DNA of 29,580 bases, from positions 1-29,580 of the IMG/VR virus record IMGVR_UViG_3300008111_000154; one strand, 5' to 3'. Under the pieces are notes generated by a model. It made no database searches, was not told the DNA's origin, and worked only from the letters and a program-made list of their open reading frames with translations. Below are positions 6,936-20,194 of the stretch, one piece after another; the first letter of the stretch is position 1, and each line of letters starts with the position of its first letter. Source of the DNA: a virus. Made by a program: the position numbers and the translations under genes.

Positions 6936-7553
6936 ATGACCACTCCCACCATCCAGACCAACTCCGACACCGGCGTGCGCTTTTACGCCGACCCCGGCCC
7001 GCAGGAGGGGCAGAGCGTGGATCTGTTTGTGCCGCTGCGAGGCGAAACGGCGACCAACCCCGGCGGCACCCGCTGGCCCAACCTGTTTGGTTTGCCCTAC
7101 GACGGCACCGAGCTGCAGTTCTACCTGAAGGGCGAGTCGAAGGTGCGCGAGTACGACCCGGCGATCTTCTACGAGGTCGCGACATGGGGTGCGATCGACT
7201 ATGCCAGCCCCAAGGCGGGCGGCCCGGCCGGCACCTGGGAGGAGACCCTGGAGGTACTGCGCCGGCCGGTGGAGGAGCTGTTGAATCAGGTGGAGGCGGC
7301 GCGGCTGCAGGCGAACGCCAGGCTCTACCCGAGCAATGAGGACCCGATGCTAGGAGTTCTGCTGGCGGAAGCGATCCGGCGCGACGCTGAGGGAACGGCA
7401 ACATCGTTTATGGCCGAGCTGCTGACCCGCCACCAGGCGCTGGTGCACGCGGGCTTCCAGAACATGGAGCGCGCCGCCGAATTGCGCCAGCAGATTGAGG
7501 CTGGCCAACCCTTCAATCTTTCCACCGGCTGGATCAATGAGCCTTCGGCATGA
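6936..7553 (+). CDS. Hypothetical virion-cassette protein
   Basis: A 205-residue protein I do not recognise. The first 70 residues look beta-rich (TGVRFYADPGPQEGQSVDLFVPLRG, LFGLPYDGTELQFYLKG), possibly an Ig-like or fibre-attachment domain. Residues about 95-205 are helical (EETLEVLRRPVEELLNQVEAARLQAN, then ALVHAGFQNMERAAELRQQIEAG). A helical C-terminal half could be a coiled coil, or a chaperone-like segment assisting the neighbouring fibre; neither is shown by sequence. It is encoded within the fibre cassette and its end overlaps the next gene by 17 bases. No signal peptide, membrane segment or catalytic motif is seen. Confidence 0.6.
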   Translation: MTTPTIQTNSDTGVRFYADPGPQEGQSVDLFVPLRGETATNPGGTRWPNLFGLPYDGTELQFYLKGESKVREYDPAIFYEVATWGAIDYASPKAGGPAGTWEETLEVLRRPVEELLNQVEAARLQANARLYPSNEDPMLGVLLAEAIRRDAEGTATSFMAELLTRHQALVHAGFQNMERAAELRQQIEAGQPFNLSTGWINEPSA

Positions 7554-8343
7554 GTGGCGCAAAGGACCCTATGCGGGAGGCAACAAGTTGCTGATTGTTC
7601 CAAGGCCAAAAGTAAGCACATCAAACCTATGGACGCCAGCGTCAGGCGCACTGTGGCTTGATATGTTTAACACCGCGAACTATACGGATGTTGGCGGGTT
7701 TGCAAGCCAAGTAAATGACCTCACCGGAAACGGACGGAACGCAATAGAAGCGACTAATAGGCCAACAATCACTACGGCATCCGGCTATACGGTTCTCCGT
7801 TTTGATGGCGTCAACGATCAGATGACTATCGGCAGCCAGTTCTTCCCCTCTGGCGCTGCCGCAAGCGCCTCTTACATTATTGCGATGGTAGCTAAAATAA
7901 ACAATAACGCTCTATTCGGTGGGATCACAACGCACCCAGCTGGCACGGTGACGGGATGTGCGCTGGCCACAAACGGCGGCGGACGGTGGAGTCATGTCTG
8001 TGCCGGCAGCACTTTCACGCCAACCGTAACATATACAACAAGAACAATCCTGGCCGCAGTTTTAGACGCTGGGGTGCTGAGGCTATTCGTTAATGGCACG
8101 CAAGCCGGGACCTCCCTCACCGCGACCGGAAATATAGTTAATGCCTCTACCGTCAAGCTCGGTACCTACAGAGTTGACAACGCAACTTTCGGCGCTTTTG
8201 ATCTTGAAGAATTAAGCGTGTTCACAGGCACGGCAACAACAACAATCAGGCAAAACCTAGAGGGCTACTTTGCCAACAAGCGCGGGCTAACCGGAGGCTT
8301 ACCGGCGGGCCATCCCTGGAAGTCAACACCGCCCACGAACTAA
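7537..8343 (+). CDS. LamG-like (concanavalin-type) adhesin/fibre-tip protein
   Basis: A 268-residue protein with the pattern of LamG-like jelly-roll domains: ALWLDMFNTANYTDVGG, VNDLTGNGRNAIEATNRPTI, VLRFDGVNDQMTIGS at about residues 40-110, then FVNGTQAG and LEELSVFTGTAT. These domains bind glycans or other surface polymers and are frequent at fibre tips. ATG at 7537 is preferred because it begins the conserved protein and overlaps the upstream gene by 17 bases; an in-frame ATG at 7495 lies deep inside that gene. Codon use shifts clearly toward AT-rich codons (ATA, AAA, TTA, AGA) from about 7555 to 8300, unlike both neighbours, indicating recent acquisition from a lower-GC source. Receptor binding is inferred. 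Confidence 0.75.
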   Translation: MSLRHEWRKGPYAGGNKLLIVPRPKVSTSNLWTPASGALWLDMFNTANYTDVGGFASQVNDLTGNGRNAIEATNRPTITTASGYTVLRFDGVNDQMTIGSQFFPSGAAASASYIIAMVAKINNNALFGGITTHPAGTVTGCALATNGGGRWSHVCAGSTFTPTVTYTTRTILAAVLDAGVLRLFVNGTQAGTSLTATGNIVNASTVKLGTYRVDNATFGAFDLEELSVFTGTATTTIRQNLEGYFANKRGLTGGLPAGHPWKSTPPTN

Positions 8344-8348
8344 CCCAC

Positions 8349-8948
8349 ATGCCTCATCCCCGCACCCTTCTCCGCCAAGCGTTTGTCGCGCGGCTCCGCG
8401 ATGCAACAGTTGCCGAAGAGCGCGTCTACTCCGGCCGGCTCATGCCGATCAATGACGAGGAGGATGAGCCGACACTTCCCGCCATCGTGGTTCACACCCG
8501 CGAGCCGGAGCAGGTCATCGATCGCTCCACGTCCGGCTTCGATGGCTTCGAGCGTCGTCGCTGCATCGTCTCCGTCATCTGCGTCGCCCAGTCCTACGAC
8601 GACCTGGACGAGGATCTCGACACCATGGCCCAGCAGGTGGAGGCAGCCCTCCAGGCCTGGATCATCCCAGGCTTCGAGTCTGCCGACGCCATGCTGATGG
8701 ACACCAGCTCCGAGCCGCCAGACTTCGACGGCAGCCTCACCACCAACGCCACCACCCTCCGATACGCGGTCGAGTACAACACCCCTTACCGCACCTGCAG
8801 CAACCCTTACGTCATCAGCGCCGGCTCCCTGGAGCAGTCCGGTGCCTACCCTGGTGGGCAGGTCACCCCCGGCTGTCCAGCCGACAGCATCGGCACCGTC
8901 TGCCCCACCGGCGGCGCGACAATCATCGTCAACGGCACCCCAACCTGA
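8349..8948 (+). CDS. Tail terminator-like protein (lambda gpU-like)
   Basis: The 199-residue product resembles the lambda gpU tail-terminator fold: an N-terminal helix (PRTLLRQAFVARLRDATVAEERVYSGR), then a strand LPAIVVHTREPEQVIDRS, then FERRRCIVSVICVAQSYDDLDEDLDTMAQQVEAAL, giving the LPA.VVxT and LD.MxxQVE pattern of the family (residues about 1-105). The terminator caps the tail tube and joins it to the head. It is longer than gpU (131 aa); the extra C-terminal 60 residues are Gly/Pro/Thr-rich with three cysteines (TCSNP, GCPAD, VCPTG). It is followed by a connector gene with overlapping stop and start (8946-8950), consistent with a neck function. Fairly confident about role class, less about exact family. 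Confidence 0.65.
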   Translation: MPHPRTLLRQAFVARLRDATVAEERVYSGRLMPINDEEDEPTLPAIVVHTREPEQVIDRSTSGFDGFERRRCIVSVICVAQSYDDLDEDLDTMAQQVEAALQAWIIPGFESADAMLMDTSSEPPDFDGSLTTNATTLRYAVEYNTPYRTCSNPYVISAGSLEQSGAYPGGQVTPGCPADSIGTVCPTGGATIIVNGTPT

Positions 8949-9851: not shown

Positions 9852-10108
9852 TGCCAGCCGTCATTCGCATCGGTGATCCAGGCAGCCACGGTGGCGCGGT
9901 CACCACCGGCAGTTCAGACACGACCGCGAACGGCATTGCGGTCGCCCGTGTGGGGGACACCTACAACTGCCCGATCCACGGGCCCAACGCCATCGTCACC
10001 GGCAGTCCCGACACCACCGCCAACGGCCAGGCCGTCGCCCGCGTGGGGGATCAGACTGCATGTGGTGCCACCCTCCAGGGCGGCAGTCCTGATGTGGAGG
10101 TGAACTGA
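9851..10108 (+). CDS. PAAR-motif spike tip protein
   Basis: An 85-residue PAAR-repeat protein. It opens with PAVIRIGDPGSHGGAVTTGSSDT and shows paired VARVGD motifs (residues about 34-39 and 67-72) with GSPDT repeats and conserved histidines and cysteines (H14, C42, H45, C75) suited to bind a metal at the sharp cone tip. PAAR proteins sit on the gpV/VgrG beta-helix and sharpen it for membrane puncture. ATG at 9851 is the A of the preceding TGA, so V and PAAR are coupled, and the gene ends by overlapping gpW in the same way. Highly confident. Confidence 0.93.
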   Translation: MPAVIRIGDPGSHGGAVTTGSSDTTANGIAVARVGDTYNCPIHGPNAIVTGSPDTTANGQAVARVGDQTACGATLQGGSPDVEVN

Positions 10109-10446
10109 TGGCCGGCATGAGCCGCACCACTGGCGCTGCGTTGGAAGGTTTTGACCACCTGAAGCAGTCGATCGGCGACATCCTTTCCACCCCGCTGGGG
10201 ACGCGGGTGCATCGACGCGACTACGGCTCACGCCTCATGGGCCTGGTTGATCGACCCATTAACCAGTTCCTCGTCGCTGACATGGTGGCAGCAGCGGCCG
10301 AGGCCCTCGACCGTTGGGAGCCGCGGCTGAAGGTGGAGCGGATCACGATCGACAGGGTGACGGCCGATGGGCGGATCGAGCTCAGCCTGTCTGGCTACTA
10401 TCTGATCAACGGCCAGCAGGTCACGTTCGAGGGGTTGGTGCTCTGA
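10108..10446 (+). CDS. Baseplate wedge protein W (P2 gpW / T4 gp25-like)
   Basis: The 112-residue product is a gp25-like sheath-initiator/baseplate wedge protein. Diagnostic segments are LKQSIGDILSTPLGTRVHRRDYGSRL (the IxxILxTxxGxRxxRxxYGS signature), LVDRPIN, and a C-terminal LSGYYLINGQQVTFEGL strand region. In contractile tails this protein joins the inner baseplate ring to the first sheath ring through a strand-exchange 'handshake'. It lies between PAAR and J in the canonical P2 order (V, W, J, I), with overlapping start and stop codons on both sides. No oddity. Confidence 0.93.
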   Translation: MAGMSRTTGAALEGFDHLKQSIGDILSTPLGTRVHRRDYGSRLMGLVDRPINQFLVADMVAAAAEALDRWEPRLKVERITIDRVTADGRIELSLSGYYLINGQQVTFEGLVL

Positions 10447-17674: not shown

Positions 17675-18787
17675 ATGAGCAACCTCCGCGTCCAGCAGCT
17701 GCAGCACCCCAGCGCATCTACCCCGGCACTGACCCTGGCAAACGACGGGACTGCTGCTGCGCAACTCAGCGCCATCAACGGTGGCCCGCTGGCCGGCTTC
17801 CGCAACGCCATCATCAACGGCAACTTCGACTTCTGGCAGCGCGGCACCAGCTTCAATGCATCGGCCTTCGGCGCCGACCGCTGGCTCAATGGCTACGTCG
17901 GCAGCAGCGCGGTGCTGAGCCGCCAAGCCTTCACCCTGGGCCAGGGTAACGTCCCCGGTGAGCCGCGATTCTTCAACCGCACCGTCGTCACATCCGTGGC
18001 AGGGGCCAGCAACTACTCGCTCCTGCTGCAGCGAATTGAAGGCGTGCGCACCTTCGCCGGCCAGACGGTCACCATCAGCTTCTGGGCCAAGGCTGATGCC
18101 AGCCGATCGATCGCAGTAGAGCTGATGCAGTGGTTCGGCACTGGCGGTTCACCCAGTGCCGTGGTGTCGGGGATCGGCGCAACGAAGGTCAGCCTCACCA
18201 CAGCTTGGCAGCAGATCAGCCTCACGGTCACCGTGCCCTCCATCAGCGGCAAGATGCTCGGCACCGCCGGCGATGACTACCTGGCGCTCAACATTTGGTT
18301 TGACGGCGGCAGCAGCTTCAACGCCCGCAACGGCACCCTGGGCCAGCAGTCGGGCACGTTTGACATTGCCCGGGTGCAGGTGGAGCCCGGGGCGTTCCGC
18401 ACACCATTCGAGCTGCGGCCATCTGGCACGGAGCTGGCGCTGTGCCAGCGCTACTACGAAAAGTCCTACGACCTCGACACCATCCCAGGCACCGCCACGG
18501 ATACCGGCCTGGTGGGCGGGCAGTGCATCTATTACTTCTCAACCACTGGTTACGCGCCCCCTGCGCCGGCGGTGGCTTATCGCGTCACGAAGCGCGGCAC
18601 CCCGCAGCTCAATTTTTGGAACCGCTCGGGCACCGCCAATCAGTACAGCCAGTATTACAACGGGGTGTGGGCGAACCAGGCCACCGCGCCAGTCGCGCTC
18701 TCCAACAGCACGAACGGGTTCTTGGTCTACCCCAACGCCTACGTCGCCAGCATGCTCTTCCACTTTGCTGCTGACTGCGAGCTCTGA
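17675..18787 (+). CDS. Fibre protein with carbohydrate-binding-like module
   Basis: A 370-residue protein. The N-terminus (LRVQQLQHPSASTPALTLANDG) is a fibre attachment segment. Residues about 40-250 carry the widespread phage module beginning RNAIINGNFDFWQRGTSF and ADRWLNGY, then SYSLLLQRIEG-like strands, TVTISFWAKADASRSIAVEL, and ARVQVEPGAFRTPFELRPSGTEL, a jelly-roll resembling CBM/CenC carbohydrate-binding domains. After ALCQRYYEKSYD (about 255-266) a second beta domain (about 270-370) forms the C-terminus, probably the exposed tip. It starts three bases after the collar gene and overlaps the following start. Likely binds a cell-surface glycan; this is inferred. Confidence 0.78.
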   Translation: MSNLRVQQLQHPSASTPALTLANDGTAAAQLSAINGGPLAGFRNAIINGNFDFWQRGTSFNASAFGADRWLNGYVGSSAVLSRQAFTLGQGNVPGEPRFFNRTVVTSVAGASNYSLLLQRIEGVRTFAGQTVTISFWAKADASRSIAVELMQWFGTGGSPSAVVSGIGATKVSLTTAWQQISLTVTVPSISGKMLGTAGDDYLALNIWFDGGSSFNARNGTLGQQSGTFDIARVQVEPGAFRTPFELRPSGTELALCQRYYEKSYDLDTIPGTATDTGLVGGQCIYYFSTTGYAPPAPAVAYRVTKRGTPQLNFWNRSGTANQYSQYYNGVWANQATAPVALSNSTNGFLVYPNAYVASMLFHFAADCEL

Positions 18788-19722
18788 TGTTTGCTTTTTT
18801 GCACGGCATAGAGGTGCTTGATGGTGATAACGGCCGGCTAATTCGAGCATCGCGCCCCCGCGTGAATGGCGTGATTGGGAGTGACACCAACTGGGTAACG
18901 CTTGCGACCACGTTTGCTGCTGATGCAGCGGTGGGTGGCGTCAGCGGTGCGTTCAGCGCGACGACCTGGGCTTCGGGATCGACAACGTTCGCTGCCGATG
19001 CAGCTGTGGGTGGCTCTGACGGGGCCTTCAATGAAACGGTCTGGGTGACACTCGCGACGACGTTCGCTGCTGATGCAGCAGTGGCTGTCGCGCCGCCCGA
19101 GCCATCAGTGCTGACATTTGCAACATCTTCTATTGTTTATGTACCGAATCCCAACATAGACAGCAATACCAGACCCTTACAGCTTAACCCGTCTGGCGGA
19201 GCGATGAATACAGGGGCAACGCCAAACCAAAGAAATTTTATATACAAGGACTTAACGTGTGACGATGCTTCTGTTATTTGGGTGCCTTCAGGGCAGTCCT
19301 TGTCTGCGGCTGTGAACTTTGCCAACAATAGCGCAGAGCTTTCTAACGCTAGCCAAAGGGCACAGCGGTTTGATTACTATTTTAATACTTCAACGTTATC
19401 CCAAGCCGGCCCGCCAGTCGGCTACACATGGACGAACAGGTTTGATTTGTACTTTGGTGCTTTTTATCTTGACGGTCCTTACAGCTTTTGCGGGGCCGCA
19501 AACGTCGTCAACTTGGTCAGCGCTACTTCAACCGGAGTCGCACAGTTCACCGGAGGCGACGGAGCCTGGCTTAATAGAAACTCATTAAGCAGCAGCGCCT
19601 ATAACATCGCCTTTGGTGCGTCTGGCAAGACTGGCACACTGCAATTCACTGCGGCTACTGATGTGCAGGGCACGGGCAACCAGATAAGCGGTGGGATTAT
19701 CACAATCACCATAAACAACTAA
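18787..19722 (+). CDS. Chimeric fibre-like protein with tail-sheath-like N-terminal arm
   Basis: A 311-residue protein with three distinct parts. Residues 4-32 (FLHGIEVLDGDNGRLIRASR, then PRVNGVIGS) match the N-terminal arm of the sheath protein encoded at 20244 (FLHGVEVLQIDTGARPIQTV, then RSSVIGVIGT). Residues 32-106 are three tandem 25-residue repeats containing TTFAADAAV. Residues about 107-311 are an unrecognised beta-rich domain (LDGPYSFCGAANVVNLVSAT, AYNIAFGASGKTGTLQFTAA) encoded by clearly AT-richer DNA from about 19110. No ribosome site stands out; the start overlaps the preceding stop. In contractile sheaths the N-terminal arm exchanges strands with neighbouring subunits, so this protein might dock on the sheath. 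It could instead be a recombination product. Confidence 0.7.
   Translation: MFAFLHGIEVLDGDNGRLIRASRPRVNGVIGSDTNWVTLATTFAADAAVGGVSGAFSATTWASGSTTFAADAAVGGSDGAFNETVWVTLATTFAADAAVAVAPPEPSVLTFATSSIVYVPNPNIDSNTRPLQLNPSGGAMNTGATPNQRNFIYKDLTCDDASVIWVPSGQSLSAAVNFANNSAELSNASQRAQRFDYYFNTSTLSQAGPPVGYTWTNRFDLYFGAFYLDGPYSFCGAANVVNLVSATSTGVAQFTGGDGAWLNRNSLSSSAYNIAFGASGKTGTLQFTAATDVQGTGNQISGGIITITINN
18880..19104 (+). repeat. Three tandem 75-base repeats (25 residues each)
   Basis: Copies at 18880-18954, 18955-19029 and 19030-19104 encode the shared core TTFAADAAV, with a Trp four to six residues before it (NWVTLA, TWASGS, VWVTLA). The DNA copies have diverged at synonymous and some other positions, so they are not a fresh duplication. 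They separate the sheath-like arm from the C-terminal domain and may act as a spacer. Confidence 0.85.
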
Positions 19723-19768: not shown

Positions 19769-20194
19769 ATGGCCAAGATCATCTACGACAGCTTCCTGCC
19801 GGACATGGCTGCCGGCAACTGCAACACCATCCACGCCTTCAAGGGCATCCTTACGAGCGCCGGCTACTCGGCAAATCGGGCGACGCATGCGAAACGGTCC
19901 GATGTGACCAACGAAATCTCCGGGCCCGGGTACTCCGCTGGTGGCGCCCCGGTGACTCTCAGCGTCTCCGTCAACACCACCACCCACGTCGTCACGATCA
20001 CGGTCGGTCCAACCACCTGGGCCAATTCCTCCCTCACCGCCAAGCAGCTGGTCGTTGCACGCGCTCGCGGGGGCGCTGCCAACCTCGATGAGCTGGTGTG
20101 CTGCATCGACAACGGCACTGACGTGACGAGCTCCAACGGCACGCTTACCTTCCCAGGCGCCACCTGGACCATTCCGCTCCCAGCGCCGGTCTGA
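19769..20194 (+). CDS. Conserved phage virion-associated protein, function unknown
   Basis: A 141-residue protein of a family common in tailed phages, recognised by its start (KIIYDSFLPDMAAGN), the middle block FKGILTSAGYSANRATHAKRSDVTNEISGPGYSAGGAPV (read in pieces) and the end block ARGGAANLDELVCCIDNG. Members are usually beta-rich and found among structural genes; their exact role is not established. Here it stands between a sheath-armed fibre-like gene and the sheath gene and has its own TAGAATC box 37 bases upstream, which suggests it may be expressed strongly, like the sheath. No membrane or signal segment is seen. Confidence 0.7.
   Translation: MAKIIYDSFLPDMAAGNCNTIHAFKGILTSAGYSANRATHAKRSDVTNEISGPGYSAGGAPVTLSVSVNTTTHVVTITVGPTTWANSSLTAKQLVVARARGGAANLDELVCCIDNGTDVTSSNGTLTFPGATWTIPLPAPV

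Follow-up and report, generated by a model that had tools for sequence, protein, structure and literature searches.

The DNA analysed here, called the window throughout, is the whole of the 29,580-base IMG/VR virus contig IMGVR_UViG_3300008111_000154, which belongs to a virus of picocyanobacteria. Its tail genes, all coordinates of which are on the plus strand, lie in P2-like order: a tail terminator (8349-8948; phrog_4204, E 2e-14), a spike, a gp25/W-like baseplate wedge or sheath initiator (10108-10446; phrog_43, E 4e-39), tail fibre genes, a 311-aa protein referred to below as the arm protein (18787-19722), a 141-aa protein of family phrog_644 (19769-20194; E 3e-17), the 477-aa tail sheath (20244-21677; phrog_23, E 4e-117; PF04984/PF17482; R2 pyocin sheath 3J9Q), the tube, and a long gene of tape-measure type, a name that rests on position and length. 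The reading frames of the arm protein and the sheath were borne out as given in an earlier sequence-only reading of this DNA. The arm gene has an ATG start and directly follows a tail fibre gene (17675-18787; phrog_4492, E 4e-78), whose stop it overlaps (TGATG), the start lying within the stop codon (CTCTGATG). Elsewhere in the window, the product of 7540-8343, ahead of the tail terminator, matched the concanavalin A-like lectins of PF13385 weakly (E 1e-4, below the cut-off) and is another candidate surface-binding protein. The middle of the sheath itself (20676-20940, residues about 144-222) matches repeats of the cyanophage fibre/wedge families phrog_5342 and phrog_17885, which suggests an extra domain inserted in the sheath.

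The arm protein begins with a sheath-type N-terminal arm (residues 1-32, 18787-18882), assigned from a shuffle test, a sheath-arm profile, phage-wide tblastn, invariant columns and dN/dS. Residues 4-32 share homology with the arm at the N-terminus of tail sheaths, the parental arm type lying at residues 5-34 of the neighbouring sheath. The alignment of FLHGIEVLDGDNG-RLIRASRPRVNGVIGS with the sheath's FLHGVEVLQIDTGARPIQTVRSSVIGVIGT scored 67 by Smith-Waterman, a value reached by none of 20,000 shuffles (maximum 45), and the shared pattern that the sequence-only reading had pointed out is real; its claim of equal spacing is not, as the alignment spans 29-30 residues with one gap, of one residue, after D-x-G. 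Apart from the sheath, the arm protein is the only window ORF above background against the sheath arm (the next best scores 39), and it carries the sheath-arm motif F-x-H-G ... D-x-G-x-R ... V-x-G. When the arm was compared by tblastn with 50,697 phage records, 39 GenBank phages matched, each once, and the annotated matches were tail/sheath genes, bar one 'hypothetical protein' and one ORF number. The profile search that the earlier reading had proposed, run as a sheath-arm profile against all six-frame ORFs of 99 sequences, found just two non-sheath proteins, the window protein (E 6e-4; its copies in overlapping records were also matched) and that of a second contig, L029 (E 7e-5). We regard the arm as almost certainly of sheath descent.

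The remainder of the protein is indeed not sheath, as had been claimed: the sheath body (subtilisin-like and C-terminal sheath domains, PF04984 and PF17482), strongly matched in the neighbouring sheath, found no match in the arm protein, nor did any PHROG sheath family. Searches of Pfam, PHROG and NCBIfam gave no family for the window arm protein, and the description 'fibre-like' was not sustained by homology, as no family of fibres, collars or chaperones was matched. After the arm comes a spacer (18892-19095) of three copies of a 25-residue repeat, and the repeats noticed earlier are real, with a 75-nt period at 18904-19084 (tandem repeat finder). The C-terminal domain (C-domain; residues 106-311, 19102-19719), delimited by homologues, base composition and AlphaFold2, has a GC content of 0.49 against 0.64 for the genome. 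Modelled alone it is all-beta (pLDDT 72, pTM 0.75), in agreement with the 'beta-rich domain' proposed before; the full-length arm protein, modelled with 11 sequences, gave a pLDDT of 29. Because no match of the C-domain model to PDB or BFVD reached E 0.001, we give its fold no name.

Three carriers of the arm protein were found, all P2-like phages: the window, the 4.7-kb contig L029 and a contig from a Cyanobium metagenome-assembled genome, L100. They share the gene order fibre, arm protein, phrog_644 protein, sheath. On L029, a 352-aa arm protein (MSFLHGIEILDSDSGRLVRASRPSVNGVIGSNTNWVT...) is followed by a 140-aa phrog_644 homologue and then the sheath, while the 261-aa arm protein of L100 has the same neighbours as that of the window. 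The 59.5-kb contig of L100 also encodes a tyrosine integrase (PF00589) near tRNA-Met, and because of this integrase beside a tRNA we read it as probably a prophage. The repeat of about 25 residues occurs once in the L100 protein, three times in the window and four times in L029. The C-domains of the window and L100 showed no convincing similarity to that of L029, which instead matches the phage 'virion structural protein' family phrog_10356 (E 1e-17). A conserved arm, variable repeats and two unrelated C-domains make up the module layout of a display protein, with binding putative.

Other relatives lack the gene. Five contigs whose sheaths are 92-96% identical (L020-L024) have neither the arm gene nor the phrog_644 gene, which accompanies the arm gene in all three carriers; the pair is therefore either an accessory insertion or was lost there, and the arm protein, present in some close relatives and absent from others, is dispensable by that measure. 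In three of these contigs a 26-aa ORF, MPGNFLHDQQGGVGASSQQWVLMASA (MPGNFLHDQQGG...), begins at the same overlapping start after the fibre gene (L020 5934-6014; also L021 and L022) and is possibly a remnant of the arm gene, the similarity being weak (about 0.01). Searches of IMG/VR gave no further arm-protein carriers except a contig nearly identical to the window (L002/L073), and a DNA pattern search matched only the L029 contig and this same one, as L073. It comes from the same kind of sample, and about 60-80 bases differ at the end of its arm gene (about 7000-7060), changing the last residues; the difference may be an assembly artefact.

In 400 Cyanobiaceae genomes, L100 was the only clear arm protein. 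None of 332 sheath-bearing GenBank phages has the arm on a non-sheath protein, each having one arm place, and across 369 genomes from the class to which Marinagarivorans belongs, every match at E <= 1e-4 fell in ORFs of 382-540 aa, that is, of sheath size. Another family, phrog_20240, was considered as the arm on another protein and rejected, since it matched only sheath-size ORFs in 143 genomes. The earlier suggestion to look in other phages for the arm on non-sheath proteins beside sheath genes was met by L029 and L100. The similarity is accordingly not a single chance case: there are three, all of one phage lineage and two of them (window and L100) with the same C-domain, and they combine a conserved arm, a variable spacer, exchangeable C-domains and purifying selection.

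That selection is seen in comparisons among the arm genes, which are small samples of 35 codons: by the Nei-Gojobori method, dN is 0.088 and dS 0.99 between the window and L029, and dN is 0 and dS 0.16 between the window and L100. By these estimates the arm is under purifying selection. Seven of 30 columns are invariant in 40 distinct sheath arms (F1, H3, G4, D11, G13, R15 and G26 of the aligned arm), and the window and L029 arm proteins both retain all seven. At 16 of the first 18 arm positions the residue is one seen in sheaths (window protein counted, gap left out); in the linker that follows (columns 19-25), divergence has left mostly residues not seen in sheaths. Nucleotide identity between the arm and the window sheath gene is 21/29 at codon position 1, 21/29 at position 2 and 11/29 at position 3, which points to protein-level conservation after an old split and upholds the earlier statement that this was not a recent copying event.

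The C-domain of the window has a wider distribution than the arm protein. Siphophage-like contigs (L003-L013) encode it at 80-84% identity on an unrelated 20-residue N-terminus, in a gene directly after a fibre-type gene, itself after a large tail gene named J-like by look. This N-terminus, MRGFGFRDQALLGS..., is conserved and its gene overlaps the end of the fibre-type gene (e.g. L003 5947-6630); it had no match to any other protein among the compared loci and may be another docking peptide. In L014 the C-domain is joined to the N-terminus of a minor tail protein (phrog_15525), and in T4-like cyanophages (L015-L017, L136-L138; family tested on L015) it lies inside a long baseplate wedge protein, as an insertion in a very long chain (L015 5977-6561, L136 4001-4606). 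The C-domain is found on the sheath arm only in contractile-tail phages and on other N-termini elsewhere; which N-terminus is used thus follows the type of virion, as it should for an anchor, and this is the best comparative argument for the arm serving as one.

Cellular proteins also carry the domain. Besides L100, homologues occur in Cyanobiaceae proteins of four of the 400 genomes (L142, L143, L144 and L145), one of them weak; sampling across the phylum yielded none in its other 291 genomes. Identity is 43-48% to the L142 protein and to two proteins of L143, which lie in tandem. The host relatives have a signal-peptide-like start, as judged by eye, and a PEP-CTERM-like tail of the VPGPLPxLGAGAAFG-SRRLRRR type (TIGR04155 at E 0.006, below the cut-off, for one of the two tested); the phage arm protein has, by eye, neither signal peptide nor C-terminal sorting motif. 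From its occurrence in phage virion proteins and in these exported-looking proteins, the C-domain is probably common to phage and host surface proteins. The non-sheath part, found on other virion N-termini and in the host proteins alike, behaves like a surface module, which fits an accessory protein hooked to the sheath.

In contractile sheaths the subunits exchange arms and form a cooperative lattice. In XM1, the N-terminus of each sheath subunit pairs with the C-terminus of its same-ring neighbour and the pair joins the sheet of the next ring (PMC10457771), and the handshakes of Mu and P1 agree with this (PMC11915804, PMC10304247). In the top ring, strands come from the terminator: two in P1, a hairpin in Mu (PMC11915804, PMC10304247), and one in diffocin, which makes a three-stranded handshake (PMC11329794). 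The C-terminus of the window's terminator is the expected natural partner of its topmost sheath ring (role from PMC10491603, PMC11329794).

We propose that the arm protein is an accessory virion protein that would combine a sheath-derived docking peptide (residues 1-32), an expandable spacer of 25-residue repeats and an exchangeable surface domain. The arm would most likely contribute its beta-strand to a sheath subunit's 'handshake' sheet, the C-terminal domain would be displayed on the outside of the tail, and the displayed domain would probably aid the particle in binding or lingering at the host surface. For this reading as a whole, an accessory adhesin docked by beta-strand exchange in the sheath handshake, in which we infer virion presence, docking, location and adhesion, we estimate a probability of about 0.5. 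Docking of the arm in the sheath, taken by itself and judged from sequence, stands at even odds: the position of the gene between fibre and sheath genes is a point for accessory docking, and the points against it are the need for an isolated arm to compete with covalently tethered sheath arms, the divergence of the linker, and the small number of cases, three in a single lineage. One possible site is the topmost ring. Because the diffocin terminator gives one strand, a free arm could fill an unused top-ring position; a terminator of this kind would leave a three- rather than four-stranded handshake and up to six vacant arm positions. The P1 and Mu terminators fill both strand positions, so such a vacancy is not universal, and we consider docking at the top ring rather unlikely. 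The alternative would be substitution along the sheath, in competition with sheath arms. The adhesin may be located in the sheath lattice, at the top ring or at the baseplate.

Other explanations of the same locus were weighed. The sheath-derived stretch could be a recombination leader and nothing else, an old fusion of the sheath start to another gene that supplies a translation start and no docking; the arm gene does adjoin the sheath gene, phage tail loci often contain fusions, and the base composition of the C-domain is foreign. Such a leader would leave unexplained why constraint extends over about 30 codons, beyond the start alone, why the peptide is kept with synonymous sites near saturation and its invariant arm residues retained, and why the same peptide stands on unrelated C-domains, and we hold it to be unlikely. 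Slightly less probable again is an assembly factor that regulates sheath polymerisation by capping handshake sites left free on subunits or at the growing end, the C-domain being incidental or solubilising. Lacking a sheath body, the arm would block a handshake site and not propagate the lattice, and here too the adjoining sheath gene is in favour; yet close relatives with sheaths 92-96% identical do without the protein, which is then not required, and the use of the swapped C-domains on other virion proteins points to display. The protein might instead act in an infected or lysogenic cell, or at its surface, with the arm binding incoming or new sheath; one example would be superinfection exclusion by way of the host-like C-domain. 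Such a role would suit the kinship with exported-looking Cyanobiaceae proteins and the probable prophage L100; the phage protein, however, has no signal-peptide-like start by eye, and its gene, which begins within the end of the fibre gene, is surrounded by structural genes. We think this role improbable. Chance similarity or convergence, conceivable for a stretch of about 30 residues, is rejected statistically and deserves next to no weight, given the shuffles, the independent profile match in L029 and the return of tail/sheath-type genes, bar the two exceptions, wherever the matches among 50,697 phages were annotated.

The accessory adhesin proposed here resembles several known systems in part. 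Sheaths of the R2 pyocin (PA0622, 3J9Q) and P2 FI type (phrog_23) have the same N-terminal arm of about 30 residues, together with the subtilisin-like and C-terminal sheath domains, both of which the arm protein lacks. Sheaths with built-in domains (Ig-like in many phages, PMC9230969; the insertion domain of XM1, PMC10457771) likewise place putative adhesive domains on the sheath outside, but in every subunit, whereas the arm protein is separate and carries only the arm. The terminators and collars XM1 gp5, Mu gp37, P1 gp24 and diffocin CD1362 are non-sheath proteins that add one or more beta-strands to the handshake sheet (PMC10457771, PMC11915804, PMC10304247, PMC11329794); the strands come from their own termini and not from a homologue of the sheath arm, and the rings that terminators form are essential to the structure. 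The jumbo phages CBB and phAPEC6, and Erwinia phage Y3, bear whiskers along the contractile sheath for which host interaction has been suggested (PMC5259590, PMC7247149, PMC13282480), but these are unrelated large phages with no sheath-arm link reported, and in CBB the whisker gene was left unassigned (PMC5259590). T4 Hoc-type decoration proteins (PMC10385173), likened here by function only, also join a virion-binding module to a variable string of display domains; they bind the capsid, unlike the tail docking proposed for the arm protein. PVC and AFP particles contain several proteins of sheath descent (Pvc2-4, Afp2-4), all of them sheath-family proteins, which the arm protein is not.

The open-access literature, searched non-exhaustively, yielded whiskered sheaths whose gene had not been assigned, sheaths with built-in domains and handshake-using terminators, and no separate protein bearing a sheath arm; with the 332 sheath-bearing GenBank phages likewise without one, the sequence-only reading's remark that no such system had been described holds for both sources. 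Judged from the genes, the arm protein would be an accessory display protein of the virion whose anchor is of a new type. Tentatively, and at somewhat less than even odds, we extend this to the handshake as a general docking port, the phage having copied its own sheath arm as a modular anchor for interchangeable domains, one of them common to host surface proteins. If true, this would add a new route to appendages carried on the sheath or the neck. Through the C-domain, a part of the cyanophage virion is linked to a protein family found in its likely host, which makes the binding target directly testable. If the arm docks, it would provide a concrete mechanism for sheath-attached appendages (compare whiskered CBB, PMC5259590) and a natural example of foreign domains added to a contractile tail while the sheath gene stays unchanged.
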